DNA of 29,433 nucleotides from a virus. Positions 2,467 to 24,785 of this stretch are shown one piece after another. Made by a program: the position numbers and the translations under genes. Location of the stretch: positions 1-29,433 of IMG/VR virus record IMGVR_UViG_3300028025_002666; one strand, 5' to 3'. The number at the start of each line of letters is the position of its first letter. Position 1 is the first letter of the stretch. The notes beneath the pieces were generated by a model. It saw only the letters and a program-made list of their open reading frames with translations. It ran no database searches and was not told where the DNA came from.

Positions 2467-2495
2467 TTGACTTAATTTTCTGTATTAAGTAGGAA
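2467..2495 (+). promoter_or_regulatory. Promoter TTGACT-N17-TAGGAA directly before a start codon
   Basis: TTGACT at 2467-2472 and TAGGAA at 2490-2495 are 17 nt apart. The ATG of the next gene is at 2505, only 9 nt after the -10 box. A transcript starting 6-8 nt after the box would have a leader of 1-3 nt. This site would drive the large virion gene block from 2505 to about 14994. Confidence 0.55.
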
Positions 2496-2504
2496 TATAC
2501 ATTC

Positions 2505-3233
2505 ATGGCTACCCTCACTTTCGCAGATGCTAAAACGCTTTTAGCTCCATACGTTACTTCTCAGGGGGCAAGTGATCCTATTGTGGCTTCTGCCATTAAT
2601 GATGTGAACGAAAGGTTCATCACATCTGGGCAATGGAGAGGCAATCGGTTTATTATGAACTTCGCAGTCACTCAGGACAGCGGAGGCAACTATGTATTTG
2701 ATACTGTTGCAGGAGTGGAGAGCGTGTTGAAGGTTATTGCTCTGAACGCCGACTTGTCTGGCGGTCAAACTGCCGACATTATGAGTGATTGGTATCCTTG
2801 GGTTGAGGGTGGCCTTGGTTGGTTGCCAGCAAACTACGCTGGGGACACGCAGATTCTTAGGCAAGGGCCAGTTAGATCGTACCCTCTCCCCTCTGGAGAT
2901 GGGGCTGGTAACTTTACTGTGGATACTCAGCGTTATCGGGTGATTGGAAATGTGCCAGAGACTCGCACGATGTATTGTATTGTTCGCCGTGGGTATGTTC
3001 CGCTAGTTAATGGGACAGATAGGCTTGTTCCTTCCAACAGGAATGCCTATCGCTATGGGGTACAGGCTTGGAATTACGAGAACATCAATGAGCTAGAGAG
3101 GGCTAAAACTTATTGGGAGCTTGCCTATCAATGCCTTAACGAAGAAACTGCTAGCTTTGAGGATGGAGAACAGGTTTCAGTTGACATCCAAACCAAAGCA
3201 TTCGCTCCATCTCTAATGCGCAACCTAATCTAA
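2505..3233 (+). CDS. Virion structural protein, probable head-tail adaptor
   Basis: 242 residues, soluble. The N-terminal half is helical and then carries VNERFITSGQWRGN (about 35-48), a pattern seen in phage structural proteins of the type 'N.A..RL...G.W.G', followed by a beta-rich middle that ends in RRGYVPL. The C-terminal part is helical (NELERAKTYWELAYQCLNEE), which suits an oligomeric connector. It opens the structural block behind its own promoter and precedes the low-complexity and large internal proteins. The adaptor role is inferred from these patterns and from position; another tail or neck component is possible. Confidence 0.55.
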   Translation: MATLTFADAKTLLAPYVTSQGASDPIVASAINDVNERFITSGQWRGNRFIMNFAVTQDSGGNYVFDTVAGVESVLKVIALNADLSGGQTADIMSDWYPWVEGGLGWLPANYAGDTQILRQGPVRSYPLPSGDGAGNFTVDTQRYRVIGNVPETRTMYCIVRRGYVPLVNGTDRLVPSNRNAYRYGVQAWNYENINELERAKTYWELAYQCLNEETASFEDGEQVSVDIQTKAFAPSLMRNLI

Positions 3234-3241
3234 TCTAATCT

Positions 3242-3979
3242 ATGGGAAATCAATTAACACGAAATCCATTCCAAAGCGCATATTTGGATATGTTTGATTC
3301 AAGCGAAAACGGCGCATTTTCGCCCCTTGGGGGAAGCAGATCTGATTTGTATAGTGCAGTAGGAAATCCTACAAATGGGCAGGGTAGCTTTGGTTCAAAT
3401 ATTGGGCCAACTCAAATGAATGCTGGTGTTTATGCGCCACTCATGTCTTCCCTTACGTCTACCCAAGACTACCTTGGTGGTATTTTTGGCAATCCCAAAA
3501 GCTCCACGCTATCAACTGGGATGAATATTCCAGAGAACCTAGGTATGTCTGGAGATTCTTCCACGCCCCTTGGTAATGAATCTGCCCAGAACTCGGCTCA
3601 GTCTGCACAGAAACAGCAGAGTAATCTACAGCAAGCCTTTGAGGGCGTTCAATCCCTTTATTCCCCTATGGGTGGTAGGCCGATTGGAGGATCTGAAGAC
3701 GTGAAGGTTAAGGTGGATGCCTATGGTCGCCCCTATACCGTGGTTAGCATGACCCCTACCGATGCACAGGGTAAGTCACAGAAGGCTGAAACCTTGAGCT
3801 TTGGTATCTCTAAAGAGCAAAAAGCATCTGCTAGCCCTGCGATGGGTGCGCCTCAAGGACAAGTTGCCGCAGGAACTACGCCAAAGGTTGGAGATAAGGG
3901 GGTTTATAACCCATTTGCTAAACAGAACGAGGCTCAAATGCAGGAGTATAATCGTAGGAAGCAAGATTCAATGTCTTAA
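3242..3979 (+). CDS. Low-complexity virion-associated protein
   Basis: 245 residues rich in Gly, Ser, Asn and Gln, with a Gln/Ser run near residues 115-135 (NSAQSAQKQQSNLQQAFEG) and a more ordered stretch around 155-185 that includes DAYGRPYTVVSM. No enzyme motif or membrane segment is seen. It lies between the adaptor-like protein and a coiled-coil protein in a tight run of genes (8 nt after the stop at 3233, 2 nt before 3982), so it is most likely a minor structural protein. Function unknown. Confidence 0.6.
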   Translation: MGNQLTRNPFQSAYLDMFDSSENGAFSPLGGSRSDLYSAVGNPTNGQGSFGSNIGPTQMNAGVYAPLMSSLTSTQDYLGGIFGNPKSSTLSTGMNIPENLGMSGDSSTPLGNESAQNSAQSAQKQQSNLQQAFEGVQSLYSPMGGRPIGGSEDVKVKVDAYGRPYTVVSMTPTDAQGKSQKAETLSFGISKEQKASASPAMGAPQGQVAAGTTPKVGDKGVYNPFAKQNEAQMQEYNRRKQDSMS

Positions 3980-3981
3980 TT

Positions 3982-5187
3982 ATGGCTAAAGAAGGAGCAA
4001 CACGAACATTTTCCAATAGGATTGCAGGGGATGCGCCAACCGCAGGATCTCCCTACCTTCAATCCTTTGTCCAACCAGCGGATGTGGCTAGGACTGCCCA
4101 GTTTGAAAGAGCCTTGCAAATGGAAAGGAGTGATCGTGAGCAAGATAGAGCCTTACGCCAAGAGGAGTTTCAAAATAGGGAACTTGAGTATAGGCAAAAA
4201 GCTGAAGATCGTCGTTTGGAAGCCGCAAATCTTGCCCTTAGAAAACAAGATGCTCAAGATGCTTTGAAATTAGAGGATGAAAAAAGACAAGCTGAAGCAT
4301 CAGAGGTTGCTAGCAGGATAGGGCTTTTGAGTGAGGCAAGCCCCACATTTAGAGAAGATCTAAATAAGATTGTTACCGACAATGCTAAAGTATTTACAAG
4401 TAAGTACGGAAAGTTTCCTCTTGAAGAAATAAATATAAAGAAAAAGGAACATGGCGATTACATGGGGTGGCTATCCAAGAAGGCTCAAGAAGTTGGATAC
4501 TCTGGCAATGTGTATGATCTTCCTAAGAATGACATGGGAGAGTTTGACACCACTCAGAATGGTCAGATCTTTGGGCCTAAAGGAGTGTTTACAAGTTCAT
4601 TTGCCCAGAAGCAAGCCAAGGATGAGGCCGATACGCAACGCAAATTGCAAGAAGCTCGTGAAAGATCGTTCATTGGTGAGTCAACTCGTGTAAAGCTCCC
4701 AGATGGAGAGGTTATTAATGTGGAGGCACAAAAGCCTGTGAAACCATTTGATCAAAAGAAAGAAGACCTAGCATTTAAGGAACGATATGGTGTTCCAGCT
4801 TCCATTTTTTCAGCACCGATGGGAACCTCTGGTCAAACAACTAAAGTTCGTGGGAACATGGTAAATGGAAAGTTTGTTGAGGCCGAAGATGGCGATCAAA
4901 TCATGTTCAAAGACAGAAGGGATTCCAAATTAAAGGGAGGAAAGACTATTCCTTATCCCATTTATGCAGAAGAGGAAGAAAAGCGCAAGACCAATGCACA
5001 ATCTAGCCAATCTGGAGTTGGAATGCAGGGAGGCACAGCATTTATTCCATCTTCCTCACCAACATCCTTGCCACAAACTGAAACTCAAGCTACAACTCCT
5101 ACTCAACAACCAAGTGAAGGGACTAGAGTTAAGCAGAAGGGCGTAACCTATGAATATCGCAATGGAAGTTACATCCAAGTTGACTAA
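3982..5187 (+). CDS. Coiled-coil virion-associated protein
   Basis: 401 residues. After a short N-terminal stretch a long charged helix occupies about residues 38-110 (repeats of Arg, Glu, Gln and Asp), probably a coiled coil. The middle is mixed, and the C-terminal 60 residues are rich in Ser, Thr, Pro and Gln and end in a small beta-like motif (KGVTYEYRNGSYIQVD). The stop codon shares its last A with the ATG of the next gene (TAATG), which implies coupled translation with the large internal protein. The context suggests a structural or ejection-related role; no family recognised. Confidence 0.6.
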   Translation: MAKEGATRTFSNRIAGDAPTAGSPYLQSFVQPADVARTAQFERALQMERSDREQDRALRQEEFQNRELEYRQKAEDRRLEAANLALRKQDAQDALKLEDEKRQAEASEVASRIGLLSEASPTFREDLNKIVTDNAKVFTSKYGKFPLEEINIKKKEHGDYMGWLSKKAQEVGYSGNVYDLPKNDMGEFDTTQNGQIFGPKGVFTSSFAQKQAKDEADTQRKLQEARERSFIGESTRVKLPDGEVINVEAQKPVKPFDQKKEDLAFKERYGVPASIFSAPMGTSGQTTKVRGNMVNGKFVEAEDGDQIMFKDRRDSKLKGGKTIPYPIYAEEEEKRKTNAQSSQSGVGMQGGTAFIPSSSPTSLPQTETQATTPTQQPSEGTRVKQKGVTYEYRNGSYIQVD

Positions 5188-12884: not shown

Positions 12885-12885
12885 C

Positions 12886-13461: not shown

Positions 13462-13467
13462 GTTTTT

Positions 13468-14994
13468 ATGGGGAACGCTCAGATATTTTTGAGAGAGGGA
13501 TCAACTTACGTTAATACGTTTTCCTCATCTGGTGCGTATTACGATTCCGAGGCTGGAACGCAAACAGTATTGTTTGAAATACCAAACACCTCTAATAGTT
13601 TTTATTTTGGATTTAATACGGAAGTTACTAGCGTATTTATTGCCAATGATACTAATCGTTCATTTTCATATTCCTTTATTGCTGGAGAAAAAGCATACTC
13701 CCAAACTGGGCCATACCCAGAAGGATCTACACCTCCTACTGCATTTGGTTCATTCACTATTGTACCAGCAGAATACACAGGAAATGTTAATGGATTGAGT
13801 TCTGCTACAAGCACAGTTTTGGGCATATCAACATCATTTACATCTTACGGATATTACGTTCCACCTGACTATACTACAACAGCATCCGCAACCACATATG
13901 TTGAGCCAACATTTGCTCAAATCTATCAAGGTGGAGCGCAAGTTTACACTTGCACAACAGAAGGAACTTATTTTGCAGTTCCTAACGAAACAAATGGATT
14001 TGATTATTTTAATTCGTTTGGAGTTAATAGCCTTTCAGTAGAAAGCACAACTGCGGCAGTTATTATTGGAACTAGCACAGTGCAAGTTCCGTATACCTAT
14101 TTATATGCTGATCCCACATTTACAACTTTTTACAATGGGCTTTCAAATATTACATCTCAGGTAACAGTACCTAAAAGCATACGATTCGAAACCAATATCA
14201 TTGAATTTAATAGTCATTTGTTATTACCAGCGGCTCAAATACCAGAGGGCATAGATGTAAGTGAAGCAAGACGTAATGACATGGACTCTAGGGAGCTTTT
14301 TGTTTTTAGGGCTAACTATGATCATTATTATTCAACATTTATGGATGCCCCATTTCTTAGGCAAAACATTCCCGTGTTAATGCCACACGAGAGAACTTCT
14401 TACGGACTTTTTTCCACATACCCAATTTACACAGTTCCTTTTGGAGAATACGCACTAAACAGCAATAGCATGACGTTTTATGATCCCACTACCACTATAG
14501 GGTCAGGGTCGGATTCGTCTAACACATACAGCACTCGAAATAGTGCTAGTTATATCATAAATAGCAACTCTTCTAATTCTTCTGCATATACTACATTTGT
14601 ATCAACCGATAGGGGAATGACTACTGGAACCTTGAATATTTCTTTTGGTGGTTTGCTTGGCGTAACAAGTTATACTACTGGACTATTTCCTGCCAGTTCT
14701 TCAGCAAGCTATTTTAACGGAATGGAAGCAAACACCGCATTGTCATGGGAAATAGTTGGAGACAGCAATGGGAATATTTTTTATTATGTAGCAGGAACTA
14801 TTAACCGATGGGCTGGGGACTATGTTTTTGGAGATGTGGCATTTGGAGCCAATAACCAATATTTAGCTCACCCCTATAAATCATTTCCCAAAACAGCCAA
14901 TCTTACCATAGGAAGCCCTAACTCTGATGTTTATGTAGCTTGGGGAACGCAGAATCTTGTGGCTGAGTTTAATGGCGTTCTTGGTGCATTTTAA
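13468..14994 (+). CDS. Ser/Thr/Tyr-rich tail or spike-like protein
   Basis: 508 residues with very high Ser, Thr, Tyr, Asn and Gly content and few charged residues, as in beta-structured fibre or spike proteins. A short charged insertion near 265-285 (EGIDVSEARRNDMDSRELF) interrupts the beta-rich sequence. No catalytic triad, collagen repeat or chaperone domain is seen. It is the last gene of the structural block and is followed by two glycosyltransferase-like genes; abundant surface Ser/Thr makes it a conceivable glycosylation target, which is speculation. Confidence 0.5.
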   Translation: MGNAQIFLREGSTYVNTFSSSGAYYDSEAGTQTVLFEIPNTSNSFYFGFNTEVTSVFIANDTNRSFSYSFIAGEKAYSQTGPYPEGSTPPTAFGSFTIVPAEYTGNVNGLSSATSTVLGISTSFTSYGYYVPPDYTTTASATTYVEPTFAQIYQGGAQVYTCTTEGTYFAVPNETNGFDYFNSFGVNSLSVESTTAAVIIGTSTVQVPYTYLYADPTFTTFYNGLSNITSQVTVPKSIRFETNIIEFNSHLLLPAAQIPEGIDVSEARRNDMDSRELFVFRANYDHYYSTFMDAPFLRQNIPVLMPHERTSYGLFSTYPIYTVPFGEYALNSNSMTFYDPTTTIGSGSDSSNTYSTRNSASYIINSNSSNSSAYTTFVSTDRGMTTGTLNISFGGLLGVTSYTTGLFPASSSASYFNGMEANTALSWEIVGDSNGNIFYYVAGTINRWAGDYVFGDVAFGANNQYLAHPYKSFPKTANLTIGSPNSDVYVAWGTQNLVAEFNGVLGAF

Positions 14995-15001
14995 TTTCTT
15001 C

Positions 15002-15030
15002 TTGCCATAAGGTTTTTGTTTGGAAACTAT
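15002..15030 (+). promoter_or_regulatory. Weak promoter candidate TTGCCA-N17-AACTAT
   Basis: TTGCCA at 15002-15007 lies in a 10-mer TTCTTGCCAT that also occurs at the promoter before 24192. The -10 candidate (15025-15030) matches the consensus at only three positions and ends 6 nt before the ATG at 15037. The spacing fits the other sites, but the match is poor. Confidence 0.25.
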
Positions 15031-15036
15031 TAAAGG

Positions 15037-16047
15037 ATGCTTGCAATAGTAACTGCGGCAACGAAGTCATATCTTCATTGCTGGCCTCAACTCATTAGAG
15101 CCATATCAGCTTCAGCGGCTCATCATGCCGAAGCTCACTTCATCTTCGCTACTGATAATAGCGACGAATCAAAGAAAGCGGAAGAACTAGCCAAAGGCAG
15201 ACTTCCCGAAGGATGGAAGGTCACGGCAATCCGTTTGCCCATAACGGAAGACGAGAAAGACTATAAGGAATCTGCTCAGATTAGGATAGCTCAACTACAA
15301 GGAGCCGCATTTGAGTTTGCTAGGCGCATTAAGGCTGATGCCTGTTGGAGCGTAGAGAGCGATACCATCCCGACAGCCAATGCCCTTCGGGTGCTTGAAT
15401 GGACGCTCCAGATGCCAGATGCTCAAGGAGACTCCTATTATAGCATAGCCGCCGCCACTTACCCCAATGGCTTGTTCCTTGGTGGGTTTGGAACTCCGAC
15501 GGCTCAGATAGCGGAGGACTTCCTTGCTAGTGAAAGGATACTTAAGCCAAGGCTCAAGCTTTGTTTAGAGGAATGCGAGAAGCGGCTAAAGGAGGCTAAA
15601 GAAAGATCCACGGCAGAAAAGGAAGGGAAAAGAATGGCTAGGCTCCGAGAGATGGTTAAAAAATCACCACCAGATGGCAATATCTGGGAAGTCACCGCAA
15701 AACACGGATGGAGACGTAGGGGATGGATGGAGTTTGCCTATCCTGCTATTGGCCTTGGTTCAATAGTTCCGTCTGATTGGTGTGGGCTTGGTTGCACCTT
15801 ATTATCAAAGAAGGCACTAGCATTGTCTGATTTTACAGGATACTTAGGCAAAGGCACTCAAGACCTATTTCTGTGTTGGAGCAAATGGCATCCAGCAGGA
15901 CTAAGGATAGCTTGCGTTCCTCATATTGCTTGCGATCACATTAAGAGGCATGGTGATAAGGTCATCCATCACGTTGCTTGGCACGAACAGGCTCCAGAAT
16001 ATTACGGACACTTAAGGCAACGCCAGCAAGAATTCATTCCTGTTTAA
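15037..16047 (+). CDS. Glycosyltransferase-like protein with a coiled-coil insert
   Basis: 336 residues. The N terminus MLAIVTAATKSYLHCW and the following strand HFIFATDNSDE look like the nucleotide-binding half of a GT-A fold. ACWSVESDTIPT (about 102-113) carries an acidic ESD in the usual DxD position. A charged helical insert occupies about 170-212. The C-terminal half has TQDLFLCWSKW and IACDHIKRH (about 297-305), similar to the acidic and His metal-site end of such enzymes. Cytoplasmic, no membrane segment. Together with the next gene and the 867-2200 pair it suggests a phage glycan-modifying pathway. Enzyme class is likely, but sugar and acceptor are unknown. Confidence 0.6.
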   Translation: MLAIVTAATKSYLHCWPQLIRAISASAAHHAEAHFIFATDNSDESKKAEELAKGRLPEGWKVTAIRLPITEDEKDYKESAQIRIAQLQGAAFEFARRIKADACWSVESDTIPTANALRVLEWTLQMPDAQGDSYYSIAAATYPNGLFLGGFGTPTAQIAEDFLASERILKPRLKLCLEECEKRLKEAKERSTAEKEGKRMARLREMVKKSPPDGNIWEVTAKHGWRRRGWMEFAYPAIGLGSIVPSDWCGLGCTLLSKKALALSDFTGYLGKGTQDLFLCWSKWHPAGLRIACVPHIACDHIKRHGDKVIHHVAWHEQAPEYYGHLRQRQQEFIPV

Positions 16048-16049
16048 TG

Positions 16050-16078
16050 TTGACATGATGGTATAGTCGTATTACAAC
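16050..16078 (+). promoter_or_regulatory. Promoter TTGACA-N17-TACAAC before a start codon
   Basis: A perfect TTGACA (16050-16055) and TACAAC (16073-16078) are separated by 17 nt. The ATG of the next gene at 16091 is 12 nt after the -10 box, so the leader would be about 5 nt. The site lies in the 43-nt gap between two glycosyltransferase-like genes. Confidence 0.55.
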
Positions 16079-16090
16079 GCACGAACTGAA

Positions 16091-17077
16091 ATGATTGTTG
16101 CCATCTCTTACCACGATGGGGATCTTCCCCTTATGCGCCGTTGGGCAAACCATGTTTGCCAATTGGGTATTTACAAAGAACATAAGCTAGTCTTGGTTCC
16201 TATTAGGAAATCAACGACAGATGGAGTTCTAGGGCCGTTAATGCTTTGCTTTGGAGAAGTTATCATTGAGCCTTGCGATCATGCCTATGGTGGTTGGCCT
16301 CAGTCCTGCAACATGGCCTTTGAGTCCGTAGCTTGGTTGGCATCCTCAACTCTCAAGCAACCTTTCCTCTGGATGGAGCCAGATGCAATTCCACTTAAAG
16401 CATCTTGGGTGGACGATATTGAAAATGCCTACAATGCCGCTAGGAAGCCGTTTATGGGTGCTTTGGTGGAGATTGCTGGCATTATGCCTAATGGCGTGAA
16501 TCATATGAGTGGCGTGGGAGTGTATCATTGGGATCTACATCGTCTAGCCCCATCCATCTTCAATAACGAAAAAACTGCTTGGGATATTGCTAGTGCGTCC
16601 AATGTTATTCACCAAATGCACGAGACTAAGCTCATCCAGCATGATTGGGTTCCAACTGCTAAGTGGCGTAGGGATGTGGTTACTCCAGATCTAGTAGATC
16701 CACTTGCCGTAATATACCATCCAGATAAATTGGGCGTGTTAATGTTTGATGGCGTAATTCCGAATGATGTGCAGGGAGATCCTGCAATGGGTGCTGTGCT
16801 GGTTACACAGAAGCCTCATGAAACAAAGGAACCTATCAATCTATATGCCGAGACAAGGGATATGATTTTTAGGGAATATCAACCAATAGACACAATTAAA
16901 GAAGTAATTCATTATGCAAAAACCAACCCGAAAGCCAAGAAAGACCTCATCCAAAGCCTCATCCAAGAAGGCATCCTCACCAAAGCCTCATGTGCCAAGC
17001 TCTTTGCTTCCAAAAAAGCCAAGTCAGTCAAGCGTACTAGAAAACAAGTTTCGGCTTCTTTGGTCAACGATAAGTAA
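16091..17077 (+). CDS. Glycosyltransferase-like protein, overlapped by a nuclease frame
   Basis: 328 residues. MIVAISYHDGDLPLMRRWANH opens as a GT-A-like first strand and helix; FLWMEPDAIPL (about 92-102) has EPD in the DxD position after a hydrophobic strand. HAYGGWPQSCN and a His-rich region (HQMHETKLIQHDW, about 180-192) follow. The last 55 residues are a helical, Lys-rich tail that overlaps the next gene in another frame for 164 nt. This tail is probably not part of the catalytic fold. Function is inferred from fold-like features; it might modify glycans with the neighbouring transferase. Confidence 0.55.
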   Translation: MIVAISYHDGDLPLMRRWANHVCQLGIYKEHKLVLVPIRKSTTDGVLGPLMLCFGEVIIEPCDHAYGGWPQSCNMAFESVAWLASSTLKQPFLWMEPDAIPLKASWVDDIENAYNAARKPFMGALVEIAGIMPNGVNHMSGVGVYHWDLHRLAPSIFNNEKTAWDIASASNVIHQMHETKLIQHDWVPTAKWRRDVVTPDLVDPLAVIYHPDKLGVLMFDGVIPNDVQGDPAMGAVLVTQKPHETKEPINLYAETRDMIFREYQPIDTIKEVIHYAKTNPKAKKDLIQSLIQEGILTKASCAKLFASKKAKSVKRTRKQVSASLVNDK

Positions 17078-17366: not shown

Positions 17367-17913
17367 GGCTTACCTTCAATCTCCCTTATGGAAGGGGATA
17401 AGAAGGCGAGTCTTGGAACAATTTGGCGAGATTTGCGCCAAATGCGGAGAACATGGAACAGATGTGCATCATTTGACCTATGAGAGAGTTGGAGGCAATG
17501 AGTTAATGGAGGATTTGCAAGTCTTATGCAGGGAATGTCATACGGCAATTCATGCAATGGAAAAGGCAACCAAACAGCAAAAGGCCAAACGGAAGGGATG
17601 CACGGTTGAGGTTTTATACTCCATGCTAACAGATGAGCATAAAAGACAGATTGAAGCAAAATACTCTGGCAACGCATATTCTATATTAACAGCACCATCT
17701 AAAGATGGCTGGTCGGCAAGGAAGATGGCTAGAAGGTTTGTAAATATTCAATTTATAGTTGGTAATTTGCATCCTTCGTACCCAGTAGATCAAAGGCAAA
17801 TAAACGCCATTAACCAATTTTTCTACAGACAAGAATATCAATTACTGAAAAGTAGGGGCGAGTTAACAAGTAAAATGTCAAAATTATTGAGAGAAAAGTA
17901 TTTTTCTCGTTGA
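17329..17913 (+). CDS. HNH endonuclease
   Basis: About 194 residues from ATG 17329; TTG 17326 is also in frame. ICAKC (35-39), then DVHHLTYERVG (45-55) and LCREC followed by His (66-71) form a zinc-ribbon HNH fold: two CxxC pairs around the catalytic HH. The C-terminal 110 residues are basic and helical, probably DNA binding. It overlaps the end of the preceding nuclease by 38 nt and ends just before the promoter of the capsid gene. It could be a free-standing homing nuclease or a packaging or recombination helper. No intron boundaries are visible in the flanks. Confidence 0.85.
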   Translation: MRDHLTDRQLTHRAYLQSPLWKGIRRRVLEQFGEICAKCGEHGTDVHHLTYERVGGNELMEDLQVLCRECHTAIHAMEKATKQQKAKRKGCTVEVLYSMLTDEHKRQIEAKYSGNAYSILTAPSKDGWSARKMARRFVNIQFIVGNLHPSYPVDQRQINAINQFFYRQEYQLLKSRGELTSKMSKLLREKYFSR

Positions 17914-17939
17914 CTGATAGATTAGTTAAGATGTAAAAG
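17910..17939 (+). promoter_or_regulatory. Promoter TTGACT-N18-TAAAAG upstream of the capsid gene
   Basis: TTGACT at 17910-17915 overlaps the stop of the HNH gene; TAAAAG at 17934-17939 lies 18 nt further on (TGTAAA at 17932-17937 is an alternative with N16). The transcript would carry a leader of about 140 nt before the capsid ATG, unlike the near-leaderless units elsewhere in the window. Confidence 0.5.
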
Positions 17940-18086
17940 GCGAGTTAGCTGAAACCAGTCGAACTGGCGAGGGGATAGCCACCACTCAAAAATTGGGCGT
18001 TAATTATGGAGCCTAGCCCGATCCAAAAAAAAGACAGACAAAGCATTACGCCGAGTCACAAACAAACAATTTAATTATATTATATT
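17940..18086 (+). other. Capsid gene leader with hairpins and a second promoter-like element
   Basis: No ORF is seen. CCAGT-CGA-ACTGG forms a short hairpin near 17956-17968, and GGGC near 17996 can pair with GCCC near 18016. The 3' part is A-rich and ends in a TTAATTATATTATATT run right before the ATG, with no Shine-Dalgarno sequence. AAGACA and TCACAA flank the repeat at 18038-18050 and align with the promoter at 19320-19348, so a second transcription start close to the ATG is possible. Confidence 0.35.
18038..18050 (+). repeat. 13-bp repeat ACAAAGCATTACG, copy 1
   Basis: Identical to 19327-19339. Both copies lie upstream of a start codon (37 and 18 nt) and are followed by A/C-rich sequence. 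The second copy lies between the -35 and -10 boxes of a promoter-like site, so the pair may be duplicated late-promoter spacers or an activator site. Confidence 0.55.
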
Positions 18087-19256
18087 ATGCCAATCTCATG
18101 TTCCACAGTGAACGATCTTTTTCAAAGGGAGACGAACAGGTTCTCCGTTGACGTTCACGAGCGTTATTCCGTTGATGGCCCTTGGGGTCGTCTAGTCCGT
18201 GTCGGCAAATTCCCTCAAGGAATGGGTACGACTCTTAATGAGATCACAGTTGAGCGTGTGCTTTCTGGTGATTTTGAAAATGCTTGGACGAACGTTGGAG
18301 TTTCCGACGGAACTGCCAGCAATGGTTGCGTTCCTTCTCCTTCAGATCTTGACTTCGGTCAGACTGTCCGTAGCTGGAATCTTCAGAGCCGCAGTTATCA
18401 GACCCCTTGCATCTGCTTGGACGATCTGAAGACTTCGTTTGAGATTGAGTCCCAGATCGCCAAGACTGTTACTCAGCTCACTCAGCTTACGAAGACCGTC
18501 CTCGACAATCGCCGTCGTAGCGAGTATCTGCGCCTTGTTTCCAAGGTACAGGCTGGTTACAACACCGAGTACGCAACTCTGAATGCCGTTCCAGTTCCAA
18601 CCTTCCAGTTGGCACAGGATCAGCTTGATGAGCTTCGTGTTCGTCTGATTCGTGATGGTGCTGGTCACAATGCACTTGGTAAAGAGAACGGTGTTCCTGT
18701 CCTTGGACTGATCACCAGCCCTGAGACAAGTCGTGCGCTCATCCGTAACAACGCAGAGCTTCGTCAGGACATCCGCTATGCAACTCCTAGTGAGCTTATC
18801 GCTCCTCTTGGTGTTGAGCGTTCGTTCGGTGGGTTCTACCACATGATTGATCTTGAGGTTCCTCGCTTCACCTATTCTGGTGGAACGTACACCCAGATCT
18901 ACCCATTCGTGCAGTCCAGCACGACCACAGGGTTCAAGTGGGAGGCAAATCCAGCGTATAACAACGCTCCATACGAGGCCGCATACATCTTCCATCCAGA
19001 TGTGTATGAGGAGGCAGTCCAACAGGTCGGGCCAAACATCGCTGGCGCAAGCTTCGATGATTATCCTTACTACTACTCTGGTCAGTTCTTCTGGCTGAAC
19101 ATCCGTCATGCGCTTTCCAATCCTCTTGGAAAGATCGGTCGCTGGATGGGAGTGTTCACAAGCGGCAGTCGCCCTCTGGCTCCTTACCTTGGAAGGGTTA
19201 TCCTTCACAAGCGTTGCGCTAACGACTTCGGTAGCGTTGCTTGCGTGAATTCCTAA
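18087..19256 (+). CDS. Probable major capsid protein
   Basis: 389 residues, soluble, mixed alpha/beta, with a long helix near 120-160 (ESQIAKTVTQLTQLTKTVLD and onwards) and aromatic-rich sheets in the second half. I identify it as the capsid protein mainly from context: own promoter and leader, an intrinsic terminator right after the stop, and strong codon bias. Nearly all Arg codons are CGT or CGC, with only a few AGG near the ends, while neighbouring genes use AGG heavily. C-ending codons are also enriched. This is the usual mark of the most expressed virion protein. The length suits an HK97-fold capsid protein without a separate protease gene next to it. A less likely alternative is a major tail protein. 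Confidence 0.7.
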   Translation: MPISCSTVNDLFQRETNRFSVDVHERYSVDGPWGRLVRVGKFPQGMGTTLNEITVERVLSGDFENAWTNVGVSDGTASNGCVPSPSDLDFGQTVRSWNLQSRSYQTPCICLDDLKTSFEIESQIAKTVTQLTQLTKTVLDNRRRSEYLRLVSKVQAGYNTEYATLNAVPVPTFQLAQDQLDELRVRLIRDGAGHNALGKENGVPVLGLITSPETSRALIRNNAELRQDIRYATPSELIAPLGVERSFGGFYHMIDLEVPRFTYSGGTYTQIYPFVQSSTTTGFKWEANPAYNNAPYEAAYIFHPDVYEEAVQQVGPNIAGASFDDYPYYYSGQFFWLNIRHALSNPLGKIGRWMGVFTSGSRPLAPYLGRVILHKRCANDFGSVACVNS

Positions 19257-19278
19257 TAGGAACTAGCTAATCAAAGAT

Positions 19279-19315
19279 AGCCCCCTTGGAGAAATCCTTG
19301 GGGGCTTTTCTTTTT
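19279..19315 (+). terminator. Intrinsic terminator after the capsid gene
   Basis: AGCCCCC (19279-19285) pairs with GGGGGCT (19300-19306), extended by GG/CC beyond two T-T mismatches, around an AGAAAT loop. It is followed by the T-rich run TTTCTTTTT. The stop codon is 23 nt upstream. Confidence 0.9.
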
Positions 19316-19319
19316 ACCA

Positions 19320-19348
19320 TTGACCAACAAAGCATTACGAAGTAACAA
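19320..19348 (+). promoter_or_regulatory. Promoter TTGACC-N17-TAACAA directly before a start codon
   Basis: TTGACC at 19320-19325 begins a few bases after the terminator's T-run. TAACAA is at 19343-19348 after 17 nt, and the ATG at 19357 is 8 nt further on. The predicted transcript begins 0-2 nt before the ATG. The spacer holds copy 2 of the 13-bp repeat. Confidence 0.55.
19327..19339 (+). repeat. 13-bp repeat ACAAAGCATTACG, copy 2
   Basis: Identical to 18038-18050. It lies within the spacer of the promoter-like site at 19320-19348. Confidence 0.55.
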
Positions 19349-19356
19349 TTCACATT

Positions 19357-19623: not shown

Positions 19624-19647
19624 TCTTTAACCACAGGGGAACTTACC

Positions 19648-20757
19648 TTGTCTAACTTTCAACCAGTTAATTCCAATCCGACAGATGGTGAGTTAATCAC
19701 CCTTTGTAAGATTCTAGAGGCAGTCTCAACTGGAGGTGGTGGCGGTGGAGACTCAGATGTGGCGGTAGGTGCTGATGGCGTAACTAGGGTTCCTCTAAAT
19801 GTTAATGCCGCTGGTGAGCTAAAGGTTAATGTTGAGGCTAGTATTGATGCTGATCTTGCAGACATTGAGAATGCGTTAGCAACGACGAATGGCATCCTTA
19901 CAACGACTGCCGCAGATACGGCAACTATTAAGAATGAGGCCGTTTCGATTGATGGCAAACTCCCTGCGCTCTCAAACGGAAGGGTTCCTGTAGAGGCGAA
20001 TAACGCCGCTACTCAGGTATTTAACTACACCGCAACTGGTGCGGTTTCCGCTGGAACTGTAATCATCGGGCCGATTGATTGCAGTCAGTTTAGGGAAGTT
20101 TCAGTTCACGTAATTGCTATAGGTGTTGGAGCAACTGCCCCTGTAGCACAGATTTCTAATGATGGGACGAACTGGATAGCCGCACAAGTTATAAATACTG
20201 GCGGCACTATTTCAGCAACTGGGGCTATTACCGCAGGAGTAATCGGCAATGTTTCTGTTTTTGGTGCGAGGAATTTCAGAATGATATCGGCAGGAAATCA
20301 AACCTCTGGAACGATAACCATCGTCGCCTACGCCTCGCAACAGGCTACGCCTAAGTTGTATCAGACGGTGACGCTTTCTGGAATACCTCAGGTTATCCCT
20401 ACCCAATCCTCAAGTATTGGCTTTTCTTTATACCACACGCTAGTTTCAGCGGAATCGACCAACGCAACAAGCGTGAAGGCATCGGCTGGGACTATAGGAA
20501 CCTGTGTTCTGACTAACACACACAGCCAATTCCAATATGTAAAATTCTTCAACTTGGCAGTTGCCCCGACGGTGGGAACTTCAACTCCAGTAATTCAGTT
20601 TCCTATTGCGGCAGGATCGACGCTGGATGTTTCTACGTCATTCGCTGGTCTTAGATTTTCAACAGGAATCGCCTATGCAATAACGCATAATGCGCCCCTC
20701 CTAGACAACACGGCAGTTGTAGCTGGAGCAGTCCTTGTGAATTTATCCTATGTTTAA
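19648..20757 (+). CDS. Fibre or surface protein with a conserved N-terminal peptide, TTG start
   Basis: 369 residues. It starts with TTG at 19648. This start is supported by alignment with the protein at 21181: both begin with a FQPV.SNP.DGELIT.CKILEAV peptide immediately after the start. An AGGGG sequence about 9 nt upstream may help initiation; it is one of the few SD-like sites here. After a Gly linker (about 29-34) the sequence is beta-rich, low in charge and full of Ala, Thr, Val and Gly, as in fibre or cell-adhesion proteins, with helical heptad-like parts near 65-90. Likely a virion surface component; the receptor is unknown. Confidence 0.6.
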   Translation: MSNFQPVNSNPTDGELITLCKILEAVSTGGGGGGDSDVAVGADGVTRVPLNVNAAGELKVNVEASIDADLADIENALATTNGILTTTAADTATIKNEAVSIDGKLPALSNGRVPVEANNAATQVFNYTATGAVSAGTVIIGPIDCSQFREVSVHVIAIGVGATAPVAQISNDGTNWIAAQVINTGGTISATGAITAGVIGNVSVFGARNFRMISAGNQTSGTITIVAYASQQATPKLYQTVTLSGIPQVIPTQSSSIGFSLYHTLVSAESTNATSVKASAGTIGTCVLTNTHSQFQYVKFFNLAVAPTVGTSTPVIQFPIAAGSTLDVSTSFAGLRFSTGIAYAITHNAPLLDNTAVVAGAVLVNLSYV

Positions 20758-20941
20758 TATCGTTCTCAAAACCACAGGCAACGAACTCTACGACCGAATT
20801 GCTGGTCTGGTTCAAGGCGAGGTTGGAGAAGTGACAGGCTCCCCATACACGGACGGCAAGCAGTTCTATAACGCCATCTTCCCAAGCTACGGAGAAGTGA
20901 GTTGGATTCCAGCAGAGTGTTGCACGATTACTGAAGCCTAA
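20750..20941 (+). CDS. Small unknown protein
   Basis: 63 residues (MFNIVLKTTGNELYDRI, then GEVTGSPYTDGKQFYNA). Its ATG lies within the last codons of the fibre gene and its stop shares a base with the next ATG (TAATG), so translation is probably coupled. No motif recognised. Possibly an assembly helper for the neighbouring fibre proteins; this is inferred from position only. Confidence 0.5.
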   Translation: MFNIVLKTTGNELYDRIAGLVQGEVGEVTGSPYTDGKQFYNAIFPSYGEVSWIPAECCTITEA

Positions 20942-21171
20942 TGAAGCCACTCAGCGATATTCGGTTTCTAATCAAAATCTACCCACTAGCCAAGGCTTGC
21001 GTATTATTGCATTCAGATAGCCAGTATATCGGGCCTATTACAATGCAGATTGCCTACAACGAAGTGAGGACAAAGATCGTTAAGTATGGCATTAGCTCAG
21101 AGGATAAAATTGTCGGAGCAGTCGTGTATATTGCAATATCACTTGCCTACCTATTCAATAAAAGATATTAA
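20941..21171 (+). CDS. Small protein with a C-terminal hydrophobic segment
   Basis: 76 residues. The first half resembles a soluble helix and strand (FLIKIYPLAKACVLLH), and residues 56-71 (KIVGAVVYIAISLAYLF) could span the membrane. The stop of the previous gene overlaps its ATG. The promoter-like site of the next gene lies inside its 3' end. No family recognised. Confidence 0.5.
   Translation: MKPLSDIRFLIKIYPLAKACVLLHSDSQYIGPITMQIAYNEVRTKIVKYGISSEDKIVGAVVYIAISLAYLFNKRY
21143..21171 (+). promoter_or_regulatory. Promoter TTGCCT-N17-TATTAA directly before a start codon
   Basis: TTGCCT (21143-21148) and TATTAA (21166-21171) are 17 nt apart. The -10 box includes the stop codon of the previous gene, and the ATG at 21181 is 9 nt after the box. 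The geometry is the same as at 2467, 19320 and 24155. Confidence 0.45.
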
Positions 21172-21180
21172 TTCAATTGT

Positions 21181-21510
21181 ATGACAACATTTCAACCTGT
21201 ATCATCTAATCCAGCAGACGGAGAATTAATTACGCAATGTAAGATTCTAGAAGCCGTTGATGGTGTTTTGAATGTATCCGATCACAACTCTGGAGCTAAC
21301 GGAGGTAAGATTGTCCCTGCCACCACCGCTTCTGGATCTGGCACTTTTTACGCACTTCAGTTTGTAACTAGCGGAACGCTTACTGCCTATGTTGGCAACA
21401 TTACTGGAACCATAACTGGCGTTACATTCCCTGCTGGTTTTGTCCTTTACGGAAATACTACCAGCTTCACAACTGGTGCTGGAACGTCCGTAGTAGCTTA
21501 CACAACCTAG
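21181..21510 (+). CDS. Short surface protein sharing the N-terminal peptide of the 369-residue fibre protein
   Basis: 109 residues. Residues 3-26 match the start of the protein at 19648 almost position by position (FQPVSSNPADGELIT versus FQPVNSNPTDGELIT, then CKILEAV in both). The rest is a Gly/Thr/Ala-rich beta-type sequence. The shared peptide may anchor two different surface proteins to the same site on the virion. Length suggests a single small domain, perhaps a decoration or adaptor protein. Confidence 0.6.
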   Translation: MTTFQPVSSNPADGELITQCKILEAVDGVLNVSDHNSGANGGKIVPATTASGSGTFYALQFVTSGTLTAYVGNITGTITGVTFPAGFVLYGNTTSFTTGAGTSVVAYTT

Positions 21511-21513
21511 GTC

Positions 21514-22410
21514 ATGCCAAGCCTCGCTCTGAAGGCTAGTATAAATTATCCGTTTATCGGTGCATCTGGCCCTTCTTCTGATCCAGACGCTTTAGCTTGG
21601 TTTAACGCAGTAGAGGCAACTGGAAACACGATTACACCAACAAACAAGACGGCATTTAATACTGCATTCTTAGCATTAAAATCAAATAACATTTGGGATA
21701 AAATATCACAAGGTTGTTTCTTTGTTGGAATTAGTGGAGCTAATCCGCTAACAGGAGCATTCACACCATTTAAGACAATTTCTGGAACAACCCCAACCAA
21801 TGTAAACTTTACGACATCTGATTACAATAGACTTACAGGGATTATCCAAGATGGAGGTTTCAATGTAATTGGAACAAAGTATATTGACACAGGGGTTCTT
21901 AACGCCTTGGGAGAATTTGATGGAAATCCAGCGTACTTATTAGATGATAGACACGCATTACTTTATAATTCACGCAATGATATTGCCAACGATTTTCTTA
22001 TTGGATCTATATACCAAGCTGAAGCAGATGCCAATAGTTTTAAATTTGCTTTAGATGGTGCTATACCCAGTTCAAATTGGCAACTCGCATTTAACAATTT
22101 TGCCTCTGCATTGCCTACATTGAATTTAAACAACGGAGGAAGAGGATTTATGGGCGTTTCGGGAGATAATATCAATGGTGGATTAACTGAGTATATTTTT
22201 GAAAACTCAGAAGCAATATTTGGCGCATCATCTGAGTACCCAACTGGCCCATTAATGGCTTTTTTATCAGCAACGAATGTTCTTATTGCCCCTCCCCCAA
22301 CTGGCATAAAAAGAATTGCTTTTTATTCTTTAGGTACTTCATTGGCTGATAGCGCACAACTTACGGCCTATGGATCAATTATTAACACCTTACTTTCTTC
22401 CCTATCATGA
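21514..22410 (+). CDS. Tail or surface protein, unknown beta-rich family
   Basis: 298 residues. The N-terminal part has the pattern DPDALAWFNAVEATG followed by TNKTAFNTAFLALK and IWDKI, which I associate with a group of phage tail/surface proteins that continue with 'PTNVNF...DYNR..G'. The present sequence has PTNVNFTTSDYNRLTGI (about 91-107). The C terminus has a run ending in ALSS-type helix (INTLLSSLS). No enzymatic motif. Probably a receptor-binding or baseplate-related protein. Confidence 0.55.
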   Translation: MPSLALKASINYPFIGASGPSSDPDALAWFNAVEATGNTITPTNKTAFNTAFLALKSNNIWDKISQGCFFVGISGANPLTGAFTPFKTISGTTPTNVNFTTSDYNRLTGIIQDGGFNVIGTKYIDTGVLNALGEFDGNPAYLLDDRHALLYNSRNDIANDFLIGSIYQAEADANSFKFALDGAIPSSNWQLAFNNFASALPTLNLNNGGRGFMGVSGDNINGGLTEYIFENSEAIFGASSEYPTGPLMAFLSATNVLIAPPPTGIKRIAFYSLGTSLADSAQLTAYGSIINTLLSSLS

Positions 22411-22649
22411 CAACTTGGCTTGTAATTCCAACCGATAGAATAAGCGAACTGGACGAAATCAACGCCAAGTCCAACAACAGGTTTTGTTCACATTGTGAAA
22501 CCATTGATGGCGTTTACTTGACTAACTCCGACAAGCTAAACGATCCGTACTGGTCAGAATATCAAGAATTTCTTTCTTCTCTCACGCTCTTTGAAGGAAC
22601 CCCTGTTTGGCCTACGCCTCCAGCAAAAGTAAAAAAACCAAACCAATAA
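22407..22649 (+). CDS. Small soluble unknown protein
   Basis: 80 residues. The ATG overlaps the TGA of the upstream gene (ATGA). It contains a pair of Cys (FCSHCETIDGVYLTN, about 27-41) that may bind metal, and a Pro/Lys-rich tail. It lies one base before the holin-like gene. No family recognised. Confidence 0.5.
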   Translation: MTTWLVIPTDRISELDEINAKSNNRFCSHCETIDGVYLTNSDKLNDPYWSEYQEFLSSLTLFEGTPVWPTPPAKVKKPNQ

Positions 22650-22650
22650 T

Positions 22651-22830
22651 ATGAGCGATAACATTTCACAATCTGATGTAGGCCCAACAAGCGCAATTGT
22701 TTCGTTAGTCTCTCTTGTCATTAGTTTCTTCGACGCAACCCACGTTTGGCTTCAAAACCTAACCCTGCTTGTTTCTCTATGCGCTGGTTTGATAGCAATC
22801 TATGCTGGCATCAAAAGGCTACTCAAATGA
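22651..22830 (+). CDS. Small membrane protein, holin-like
   Basis: 59 residues with two hydrophobic segments (about 13-26, IVSLVSLVISFF, and 34-53, LTLLVSLCAGLIAIYAGI) and a short basic C terminus (KRLLK). The size, two spans and position directly upstream of a spanin-like lipoprotein and an endolysin gene fit a class II holin that releases or activates the endolysin. Its TGA overlaps the ATG of the next gene. Holins share little sequence, so the call rests on size, topology and neighbours. Confidence 0.65.
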   Translation: MSDNISQSDVGPTSAIVSLVSLVISFFDATHVWLQNLTLLVSLCAGLIAIYAGIKRLLK

Positions 22831-23192
22831 ACAAACTTCTTATTGTATTGGCATCGACACTTCTTATTGGATGCGCCCATAAAGAGAAGCCAACCTATAC
22901 TGCGCCCTCTGTGGTAGCCGTTAAAACGAGCGTGGAGAAAGTGCGTCAATATGTGCGCCCAGAAGGTCATGCCGCCGTTAAGGAGCTTTCTGACGCAATT
23001 ACGACCTATCAGACTCAAGTGGAAGATCAGTCTGTCGCTCTCAGGAAGGCTCAAAACGATTCTCTGTATTGGGAAAATAAGCAAATCAAAGCCTTGAAAG
23101 AACTTTGGGTCTGGAGGGGTATTGCCATTGTTTCCATCGTTTGCGTTGTGGGATACATCGGGATTAAGACTTCATGGAAATTCCTCGCTTGA
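22827..23192 (+). CDS. Unimolecular spanin-like lipoprotein (u-spanin candidate)
   Basis: 121 residues. The start at 22827 overlaps the stop of the holin-like gene (ATGA); an in-frame ATG at 22746 would place extra residues before a clear signal peptide and is rejected. MNKLLIVLASTLLIGC has a lipobox with Cys16, so the N terminus should be an outer-membrane lipoprotein. A helical periplasmic region (about 30-93) is followed by a transmembrane helix (about 97-114, RGIAIVSIVCVVGYIGI). A lipobox plus a C-terminal membrane span is the diagnostic layout of T1 gp11-type unimolecular spanins, which fuse the two membranes in the last step of lysis. It implies a host with an outer membrane. Confidence 0.7.
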   Translation: MNKLLIVLASTLLIGCAHKEKPTYTAPSVVAVKTSVEKVRQYVRPEGHAAVKELSDAITTYQTQVEDQSVALRKAQNDSLYWENKQIKALKELWVWRGIAIVSIVCVVGYIGIKTSWKFLA

Positions 23193-23503
23193 ACAAAGCA
23201 GTATCTCAGAGGCTTGTCGCTTCCCTCGTCGGAATTGCAGTAATTCAAGCCTCTTGGCGTTGGGCAGTTGAACATCTATACACGCTTCCAGAGGTGGCTT
23301 TGGCTGGATTTGTCACCATTACAACAAATACCCTGTATGTTACTGGGGCTATCGTGATTTTTCTTGTTACTGGTCGCATGGTATACGATTGGAAGATGGG
23401 AACAACCCAAGTCCAAGAAGTAGTATCGTCTGTGGCAAAAGTAAGGGAAGAGATTGTTGAATACATCCAGAAGCCAAAGAACTTCGATGACGAAACTATT
23501 TAA
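23174..23503 (+). CDS. Membrane protein of the lysis cassette (holin or antiholin candidate)
   Basis: 109 residues with hydrophobic segments at about 14-30 and 40-66 (GFVTITTNTLYVTGAIVIFL) and a charged, helical C terminus. Its ATG is 19 nt inside the spanin-like gene, and its stop overlaps the endolysin start by 17 nt. With two membrane proteins in the cassette one may be the holin and the other an antiholin or a second holin; the sequence does not say which. Confidence 0.6.
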   Translation: MEIPRLNKAVSQRLVASLVGIAVIQASWRWAVEHLYTLPEVALAGFVTITTNTLYVTGAIVIFLVTGRMVYDWKMGTTQVQEVVSSVAKVREEIVEYIQKPKNFDDETI

Positions 23504-23942
23504 GGACGTAATCATACCTTTCTTGTTCAAGTGGGAGGGGAAAAAGCTCTGCCTACATAAAGACGATGCAGGGAACTACAGGGACGGAAAGCTCGTTGGA
23601 ACCAAGTACGGAATAGATGCCAGATCACATCCGAATGTGGACATTGCGAATCTAACGTATGACGAAGCGAGTGAGATCTATTGGAATGAGTATTGGATCA
23701 AGTACGCTTGTGATGACATGGATTGGCCTATGAATCTCATCTTCTTCAATTGCTGTGTGAATTGCGGTCTATCCAGAGCAAACAAGATACTCAAACTTTC
23801 TGGTGATAACCCATCGAAGTTCATCAATGAACAAGAAGCTTTCTACAAGAGGCTCGTAATCCATAGACCTCAAAGTAAAGTTTTTTTAAATGGATGGTTG
23901 AATAGAACGAAAGATCTAAGAAAAGTAACAGGACGAATTTGA
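23487..23942 (+). CDS. Endolysin, GH108-type N-acetylmuramidase
   Basis: 151 residues from ATG 23487. PFLFKWEGKK (11-20) has Glu17 at the position of the catalytic Glu of GH108 proteins (normally EGG), and GTKYGIDA (39-46) matches the conserved '(T).YGI' stretch. LTYDEASEIYWNEYW (56-70) matches the family pattern of 'lt..eA..iY...YW'. The C-terminal part (VNCGLSRANKIL, then ...NGWLNRTKDL) fits the family's peptidoglycan-binding domain. It cleaves the glycan backbone after holin action; there is no signal peptide, so it depends on the holin. The third and last gene of the lysis cassette behind the membrane proteins. Confidence 0.85.
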   Translation: MTKLFKDVIIPFLFKWEGKKLCLHKDDAGNYRDGKLVGTKYGIDARSHPNVDIANLTYDEASEIYWNEYWIKYACDDMDWPMNLIFFNCCVNCGLSRANKILKLSGDNPSKFINEQEAFYKRLVIHRPQSKVFLNGWLNRTKDLRKVTGRI

Positions 23943-23967
23943 AGCTCTCTGCAAGAGCAGTATTAGA

Positions 23968-23996
23968 TTCTTAAGGGCTGGGGGAAAATGTGTCAA
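23968..23996 (-). promoter_or_regulatory. Minus-strand promoter candidate TTGACA-N17-TAAGAA
   Basis: On the minus strand TTGACA (complement of 23991-23996) and TAAGAA (complement of 23968-23973) are exactly 17 nt apart. It points into the endolysin gene in antisense. No minus-strand gene follows, so it may make an antisense RNA or be a chance match. Confidence 0.3.
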
Positions 23997-24030
23997 GCCT
24001 ATAATTTCTTTTCTCTTTTAAAAAAATATC

Positions 24031-24060
24031 TTGATCCCCCTACTTCATCCATTCTATCTT
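24031..24060 (+). promoter_or_regulatory. Promoter TTGATC-N18-TATCTT of the small-RNA candidate
   Basis: TTGATC at 24031-24036 and TATCTT at 24055-24060 are separated by 18 nt. The transcript would start near 24066, 50 nt before the terminator stem at 24116. The -10 is the same hexamer as at 272-277. Confidence 0.45.
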
Positions 24061-24065
24061 AGCCC

Positions 24066-24154
24066 CTCACCAACTGCCGCCAGCAATGGTCGCGGATTGG
24101 GGTAAAGGGAAATCGCTCTCCTGCTTCCTATGAGGCAGGGGAGTTTCTTTTTTC
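24066..24154 (+). ncRNA. Candidate small RNA of about 90 nt
   Basis: The stretch between the endolysin gene and 24192 has no ORF, yet holds a promoter-like site and, about 50 nt after the predicted start, an intrinsic terminator. GCCCC near the 5' end (24062-24066) can pair with GGGG at about 24099-24102, and CCGC with GCGG (about 24077 and 24092) can form an inner hairpin. It could instead be a short attenuated leader for the 24192 gene, but that gene has its own promoter downstream of the terminator, so a stand-alone RNA is favoured. No known family. Confidence 0.4.
24116..24154 (+). terminator. Intrinsic terminator
   Basis: CTCTCCTGCT (24116-24125) pairs with GGCAGGGGAG (24134-24143), including two G-T wobble pairs, around an 8-nt loop TCCTATGA. 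It is followed by the T-rich run TTTCTTTTTTC. It lies between the small-RNA promoter and the promoter of the 24192 gene. Confidence 0.85.
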
Positions 24155-24183
24155 TTGCCATTGATATTTCTCCCACATAAAAG
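24155..24183 (+). promoter_or_regulatory. Promoter TTGCCA-N17-TAAAAG directly before a start codon
   Basis: TTGCCA (24155-24160) abuts the terminator's T-run, and TAAAAG (24178-24183) follows after 17 nt. The ATG at 24192 is 8 nt after the -10 box, predicting a leader of 0-2 nt. TTCTTGCCAT recurs at 14999-15008. Confidence 0.5.
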
Positions 24184-24191
24184 GATGGGCT

Positions 24192-24437
24192 ATGACAACT
24201 GAATATCCCACACCTCGTACAGACGCTCTCATGGTTGGAGGTTGTATTGCAATCAACATACTTGAACACGCACGAGTATTGGAAAGGGAAGTGGAAGAGT
24301 TGAACCACAGGATGGTCGCAATCAAGAACACTCAATCCTCATTGATCGCCGCAATCAACTCTGCCATCAACGAATACAAAGGCTCTAGCGCAAGTGTTTA
24401 TCTTGATGGAATCATGGAGAATCTTTTTTCAAAATAA
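24192..24437 (+). CDS. Small phage protein with PRTDA and LERE motifs
   Basis: 81 residues. The N terminus TPRTDALMVGG and the following HARVLEREVEEL are the pattern of a common group of small phage proteins of unknown role ('PRTDA...AR.LERE'). The central and C-terminal parts are helical. It is the first gene after the promoter at 24155 and has no SD. Confidence 0.65.
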   Translation: MTTEYPTPRTDALMVGGCIAINILEHARVLEREVEELNHRMVAIKNTQSSLIAAINSAINEYKGSSASVYLDGIMENLFSK

Positions 24438-24440
24438 TTC

Positions 24441-24469
24441 TCGACATCCGTATCATCTCCACATAAAAC
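24441..24469 (+). promoter_or_regulatory. Promoter TCGACA-N17-TAAAAC before a start codon
   Basis: TCGACA (24441-24446) and TAAAAC (24464-24469) are 17 nt apart. The ATG at 24480 is 10 nt after the -10 box, so the leader would be about 2-4 nt. The site fills the gap between two small genes. Confidence 0.45.
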
Positions 24470-24479
24470 ATTTCTCGTT

Positions 24480-24785
24480 ATGACAACACCAACAAAAACC
24501 AAAAAGACAAAAACAACCCAGCCGCTTCCTCACGAGAAGGCATCGGAGTATATAGAATTAGGCCAACTATTGCAAGCGCATGAGAATAGCTTCATCACCT
24601 TTGAAGAGGCTATCAATGATCACGCTGTTAAGATAGACGAGCTGAACGAAGTCATCTCCCTTCACAATGAGGAGATCGCTGAACTGAGGCACTTCATCGG
24701 CCATAGCATCAATCGCATCTTCTGGATGACGGCAATCGGCATTGCAGTCGCAATCACATTCTCAGGAGTGGAAATCTTCCGCTAA
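24480..24785 (+). CDS. Small coiled-coil membrane protein
   Basis: 101 residues. A Lys/Thr-rich N terminus is followed by a predicted coiled coil (about 40-76, with EEAINDHAVKIDELNEVISL) and a C-terminal membrane span (about 81-97, IFWMTAIGIAVAITFSG). A tail-anchored topology is suggested, with the coiled coil in the cytoplasm. No family assigned; early membrane-associated phage proteins may act in host takeover or exclusion, which is not shown here. Confidence 0.6.
   Translation: MTTPTKTKKTKTTQPLPHEKASEYIELGQLLQAHENSFITFEEAINDHAVKIDELNEVISLHNEEIAELRHFIGHSINRIFWMTAIGIAVAITFSGVEIFR

Follow-up and report, generated by a model that had tools for sequence, protein, structure and literature searches.

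Near-leaderless promoters predicted at several operon starts in a clade of uncultured phages, and a structured leader ahead of their putative capsid gene

Introduction

Whether some operons of an uncultured phage are transcribed from promoters lying so close to the start codon that their mRNAs would have almost no 5' leader is the question raised by the IMG/VR virus record IMGVR_UViG_3300028025_002666. The whole record, of 29,433 bases and probably itself a fragment, was analysed and is referred to here as the window. Six sites in it combine a -35-like and a -10-like hexamer, closely followed by an ATG (Table 1). An initial annotation had proposed that they drive leaderless first genes, with coupled translation of the genes behind them, as the arrangement of a whole phage region. 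As detailed below, it is probable that several operons of these phages start with near-leaderless promoters of sigma-70 geometry. The extension to a whole region did not hold, since only 6 of 38 gene starts show the pattern and the major capsid gene clearly departs from it.

Promoter-like sites close to start codons

All six hexamer pairs are found where they had been placed, with a spacer of exactly 17 nucleotides (nt) and gaps of 9, 12, 8, 9, 8, and 10 nt from the -10 box to the ATG. The so-called TA-led genes are marked by a -10-like signal some 10 nt ahead of their start codon; this mark is present at 6/6 sites (gaps 8-12 nt), and the gaps are mostly 8-12 nt in relatives as well. Chance was assessed by counting gene starts with at least four of six matches in the -35 hexamer, a -10 hexamer starting with TA, at least 7 of 12 matches overall, a spacer of 17 nt, and a gap of 8-12 nt. 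Six of 36 gene starts match, as against a mean of 0.58 and a maximum of 4 in 1000 dinucleotide shuffles of the upstream DNA, so that the repetition pointed out in the initial annotation exceeds chance; the 8-12 nt bin is also the best one, the remaining gap bins yielding 0-3 genes. Because a generic scan of the window for the sigma-70 consensus shows no enrichment (22 vs. 27.2; 22 vs. 23.4), the special feature is the position of these elements relative to the ATG and not the abundance of promoter-like words.

The same six sites are recovered by a two-block model for which four gene families of the relatives served as training set, the window and its closest relative, L006, being left out. Exactly these sites top the 38 gene starts of the window, with scores of 14.4, 13.9, 12.7, 9.9, 9.4, and 8.8; the next-best start scores 6.2, and the shuffle p is at most 0.0032 for each of the six. 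Sites 1-3 have orthologs in the training set and sites 4-6 (21143, 24155, 24441) do not, sites 5 and 6 being alike and hence not fully independent. The gap is limited to 4-14 nt in the model, and the distance evidence proper is the unrestricted TTGAC histogram described below.

Table 1. Promoters, predicted transcription starts, and associated features; positions refer to the window unless a relative (L number) is named. SD, Shine-Dalgarno sequence; aa, amino acids.
Feature	Position	Strand	Description
Site 1	2467..2495	+	TTGACT, 17 nt, TAGGAA; 9 nt to ATG 2505; model score 12.7
Site 2	16050..16078	+	TTGACA, 17 nt, TACAAC; 12 nt to ATG 16091
Site 2, predicted +1	A16085	+	Leader ACTGAA; conserved AYTGAA starting at the predicted +1
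Capsid promoter, same type	17910..17939	+	TTGACT, 18 nt, TAAAAG; about 140 nt before ATG 18087
Structured capsid leader, variant class	17947..18086	+	Two units, hairpin, A-rich tail without SD; from blastn conservation and variant-class alignment
Putative major capsid gene	18087..19256	+	Named by position and size only
Terminator-like hairpin and T-run	19283..19304	+	Between capsid gene and site 3
Site 3	19320..19348	+	TTGACC, 17 nt, TAACAA; 8 nt to ATG 19357; model score 14.4
Site 3, likely +1	near A19354		Downstream gene encodes the 88-aa protein after the capsid gene
Site 4	21143..21171	+	TTGCCT, 17 nt, TATTAA; 9 nt to ATG 21181; model score 9.9
Terminator-like hairpin and T-run	24115..24144	+	Directly ahead of site 5
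Site 5	24155..24183	+	TTGCCA, 17 nt, TAAAAG; 8 nt to ATG 24192; model score 9.4
Site 6	24441..24469	+	TCGACA, 17 nt, TAAAAC; 10 nt to ATG 24480; model score 8.8
Tandem-pseudoknot leader	L013 9355-9424		Example of the other leader class
Tandem-pseudoknot leader	L099 12260-12330	-	Example of the other leader class
Tandem-pseudoknot leader	L083 14131-14201		Example of the other leader class

The intergenic gaps at sites 1, 2, and 6 measure 40-43 nt and are thus promoter-sized, and site 4 sits within the 3' end of the preceding open reading frame (ORF). Of note, a possible seventh site lies at 15004-15032 in a 42-nt intergenic gap (TTGCCA, 17 nt, AACTAT, ending 6 nt before ATG 15037; p 0.11).

Conservation among relatives

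In IMG/VR, 49 loci encode relatives of the putative major capsid protein, with 64-97% identity; together with 12 loci around the gene starting at 2505 and long stretches of 17 relatives, they open the promoter finding to comparative testing. Orthologs of the genes starting at 16091 and 19357 have TTGAC at about -35 to -45 in nearly all of some 35 diverged relatives, in the midst of flanks that differ, and orthologs of the 2505 gene have it at -38 to -41 in 14 of 15 non-redundant upstream regions. Counted in the same way, TTGAC is in place in 24/27 members of the 16091 family, in 21/25 of the 19357 family, and in 11/14 of a fourth family that has no member in the window, whereas shuffles of these four families place it correctly in only 1-3%. 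When TTGAC was located without restriction over -110 to -1 in 791 genes, the histogram displayed a sole sharp peak at -34 to -43 and the antisense control was flat. The peak recurs in 1277 non-redundant upstream regions; outside the four families the excess is small (42/1196 vs. 26.5).

The spacing is equally constrained. Among 69 sequences chosen on TTGAC alone, TA not being used in the choice, TA stands at offset 23, i.e., behind a spacer of exactly 17 nt, in 48, as compared to 1-11 at other offsets. The -10 consensus is TAAWAA, i.e., T-A-A-(A/T)-A-A, with a final T in about 5-8% of sites. A nearly invariant TTGAC within a TTGACA-like -35 box and a 17-nt spacer are features of canonical sigma-70 promoters, but a TATAAT-like -10 box with a conserved final T was not found in this set; since the final T is rare, these promoters are said to have sigma-70 geometry and are not classed as canonical sigma-70 promoters.

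Predicted transcription starts and translation

Standard spacing is found in 12 members of the 16091 family. Invariant among them are TTGAC, the -10 box TA, A-6, G-3, A-2, and A-1, and pyrimidines occupy -5 and -4. A-6 is located exactly 7 nt past the -10 box, at the expected +1, and the six bases in between vary freely. Because conservation resumes exactly at the predicted +1, these alignments point to a leader of 6 nt, AYYGAA and mostly AYUGAA, in this family. In the 19357 family, inspection suggests an A at -3 as the usual +1 candidate, which would give a leader of about 3 nt. Leaders of about 3-6 nt suit the two families better than exactly zero, and near-leaderless is consequently a more exact term than leaderless. 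Overall, leaders of 0-6 nt are predicted from promoter geometry together with conservation in the 16091 family, and comparison among relatives strongly supports a near-leaderless reading.

The positions, conservation, and spacing of these elements and the lack of an SD signal in the conserved families can be read from the sequences; from them we infer where transcription begins, which polymerase and sigma factor act, and how the mRNAs are translated. At several operon starts, a promoter made of TTGAC, exactly 17 nt, and a TAAWAA-like -10 box ending 8-12 nt before the ATG would direct RNA polymerase to start 6-8 nt past the -10 box, giving a first-gene mRNA with about 0-6 nt before the AUG and no SD; site 16050 would probably yield a leader of 6 nt, and site 19320 one of 3 nt. 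The first gene would be translated by AUG-dependent, SD-independent initiation, and ribosomes would reinitiate at later genes where ATGA or TAATG overlaps join them. The same promoter type would serve the capsid gene, but its mRNA would have a structured leader of about 140 nt.

The four conserved families show no SD signal, with -0.68 kcal/mol as compared to -0.83 in shuffles, and a weak minority signal exists at other genes (-5 or lower in 15.8% vs. 10%); the upstream DNA is rich in A and poor in G. The ATGA and TAATG junctions of downstream genes are present as described. Such overlaps are ordinary in phages, however, and are no evidence for leaderlessness. What stands of the proposal of a leaderless first gene with coupled translation is therefore the near-leaderless promoter, with TTGAC-17-TA at a fixed distance from the ATG in dozens of diverged relatives, and not the argument from junctions. 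As a separate observation, the gene at 19648-20757 is apparently TTG-started, with an SD-like GGGGAA upstream (-6.5 kcal/mol), and the N-terminus of its product resembles that of the 21181 gene: SNFQPVNSNPTDGELIT / TTFQPVSSNPADGELIT.

Alternative explanations

Several points weigh against near-leaderless expression. Read-through from same-strand upstream operons could yield leadered mRNA, and the -10 box is without its customary final T. Sites 4-6 are scarcely or not conserved among the relatives examined: site 4 is kept in close relatives and missing from many other homologs (with TTGC-17-TA present in some), the start at site 5 is present in only one near-identical relative, and no homolog with the start was found for site 6; taken individually, these three sites are less certain. 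Lastly, the initial annotation had seen no SD at these genes, which holds for four sites, but site 5 (24155) has AAGGA 6 nt before its ATG (-7.2 kcal/mol) and site 1 (2467) has AGGA (-5.2), farther from the ATG than the match at site 5. Both matches share bases with the -10 box and would be missing from the transcripts if the promoter acts as predicted, but they remain a caveat.

The most serious alternative, which we nonetheless consider unlikely, is that the promoters are real and the functional mRNAs mainly leadered, through read-through or starts elsewhere, the close promoters being minor. All genes downstream of 867 share one strand, and only two clear terminators lie ahead of sites (generic terminator scans of the window are at shuffle level and uninformative alone); the well-spaced SD-like AAGGA of site 5 would also fit. 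However, a promoter without a role close to the ATG would not need a fixed distance to it, TTGAC does not peak at leadered distances, and the SD signal is lacking in the four conserved families.

Less probable still is that the conserved TTGAC and the bases that follow form an RNA or operator element, such as a short regulator-bound hairpin before the start codon, and not a promoter. The 16091 and 2505 families have inverted repeats in the stretch from TTGAC to ATG (mean fold z of -0.82 and -1.21), which would be in agreement with this, but the 19357 and fourth families have no such fold (z of +0.23 and +0.64), and an RNA element leaves the TA at a spacer of exactly 17 nt unexplained. A hairpin as the general main signal was rejected on the ground that two of four families do not have it. 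The repeats themselves (16056-16084, 2470-2490, and relatives) are unlike in sequence, have the -10 box in or beside the loop, and are of modest significance; they are possibly operators or regulatory hairpins of these two families.

Chance matches to loose hexamers, or coding constraint at the conserved ends of upstream genes, can hardly be responsible and are largely refuted already: generic promoter scans find no enrichment and some relatives have TTGAC inside coding sequence (CPIDKW) of the gene before 16091, but shuffles yield a mean of 0.58 genes in place of six, exactly the six sites lead the ranking by the model trained on relatives, and the coding explanation was rejected as TTGAC keeps its place where the upstream gene ends at different positions.

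Genes served by the promoters, polymerase, and host

The 2505 product may be adaptor-like, in view of its resemblance to podovirus head-to-tail adaptors (best Foldseek E 2e-5, TM about 0.5), and the 16091 product has a weak, putatively glycosyltransferase-like fold, matching glycogenin and LgtC types at low TM-scores. A search of the relatives for a T7-like polymerase found none, but it also detected one in 0/14 control genomes, so that absence is not established. A clear sigma-70 region 4 was found in 1/16 relatives, in a 118-aa frame of L103 (G004 14940-15089), which is a candidate for phage control of these promoters. Since no T7-like polymerase was detected and sigma region 4 is clear in one relative only, the host polymerase is the likely user of these promoters.

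As to the host, a capsid profile was searched against genome contigs, against 388 genomes from the phylum of Lentisphaera marina, and against 294 from that of a planctomycete, with no convincing relative found; a 61-residue match (E 5e-4) inside a 2244-aa frame was judged spurious. The promoter-ATG pattern was not clearly enriched when counted in 16 bacterial genomes, and no terminase was found with PF03237 in the relatives.

The capsid gene, a leadered exception

The putative major capsid protein has no Pfam or PHROG match and no match among 50,697 phage records. In contrast to the families described above, TTGAC is found at -32 to -46 in 0/34 orthologs of its gene. A promoter of the same type instead lies farther upstream (Table 1), and most relatives have TTGA(C/T), with TA 17-18 nt later, about 110-190 nt upstream of the capsid gene.

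The intervening leader is conserved and falls into two classes. In the class not represented in the window, 16 aligned relatives have two tandem H-type pseudoknots with the order GCG-UA-stem-GGRGU-CGC-stem. In this alignment, 88.7% of cells are paired, vs. 45-53% when it is slid, and covariation is 0.315, vs. 0.157 in shuffles, none of 500 being as high. A hairpin (mean z -2.25) and then an unstructured tail without SD follow on the 3' side. A covariance model of the capsid leader finds one match per locus, ahead of the capsid gene, and a pattern scan of IMG/VR matches only contigs of this clade. Rfam gave no gathering-level match for the capsid leader in the window, and permissive settings only chance-level ones. 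The homology of the window's variant leader to the tandem pseudoknots was assigned by inspection only, covariance model R1 having no match there. Of note, L101 (12589-12818) has a tandem duplication of the variant leader's first unit (GCCGAAACCAGTCTTACTGGCGA...).

Tentatively, one promoter type may feed two translation classes, namely near-leaderless adaptor-like, glycosyltransferase-like, and other operons, and a leadered capsid mRNA with a new structured RNA; the leader would set level or timing, and the host sigma factor would accept TAAWAA. As a whole, this scheme is possible rather than probable.

Comparison with known leaderless systems

Leaderless expression is already known from Thermus phages and a few groups of bacteria. 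Another phage promoter with a transcript that begins at the AUG is PRM, from which the lambda cI mRNA is made; cI is a single regulatory gene, whereas virion operons across a phage clade are concerned here. In Thermus phage phiYS40, most middle and late mRNAs are leaderless (reviewed in PMC3594737). Similarly, the phages studied here would have many genes on mRNAs without a leader and rely on the host translation apparatus. In contrast to phiYS40, where leaderless mRNAs were shown experimentally, they are only predicted here, at 6/38 starts, which falls short of a programme with most middle and late transcripts leaderless; furthermore, the present clade is unrelated and uncultured, its -35 box is strong, and its capsid gene is leadered.

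Leaderless genes of Deinococcus are driven by a -10 motif beside the ORF, and this motif gains strength from a -35 box 17 bp upstream (PMC12340547). The arrangement is alike in that the -10 box is separated from the ORF by a few bp and can be joined by a -35 box at 17 bp, but the Deinococcus motif is TANNNT, mostly without a -35 box and at host genes, while the sites described here have a nearly invariant TTGAC and rarely a final T in the -10 box. Zheng et al. (2011; PMC3160421) took a TA-like signal some 10 bp ahead of the start codon, as in the present sites, for a sign of leaderless genes. That survey dealt with bacterial and archaeal genomes, whereas the phages studied here couple the signal to a fixed -35 box and conserve it gene by gene.

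The literature searched offers no account of near-leaderless promoters conserved as a set throughout a clade of uncultured phages, and the layout would be a rare one for a phage family. What is new here is conservation at operon starts across such a clade, with a strong -35 and a deviant -10 box. The relatives provide a comparative data set in which a fixed promoter-ATG distance and a deviant -10 box contrast with a structured capsid leader. If the predictions are true, promoters could guide the annotation of start codons in such phages, the preferred -10 box could give a clue to the host, and the leader of the capsid gene would be a candidate new RNA family.

Other features of the window

A methyltransferase-like gene (PHROG 8156) and a gene matching DUF6492 follow each other at 867-2200 with a 16-nt overlap; neither has a relative in the capsid-centred loci, which mostly stop short of that region. 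Farther upstream, positions 436-507 hold a tRNA-like sequence that was missed by ARAGORN and scores 27.7 bits with the Rfam tRNA model, just below the gathering score of 29. The sequence ahead of it, at about 247-435, has blocks in common with L059 and L087.

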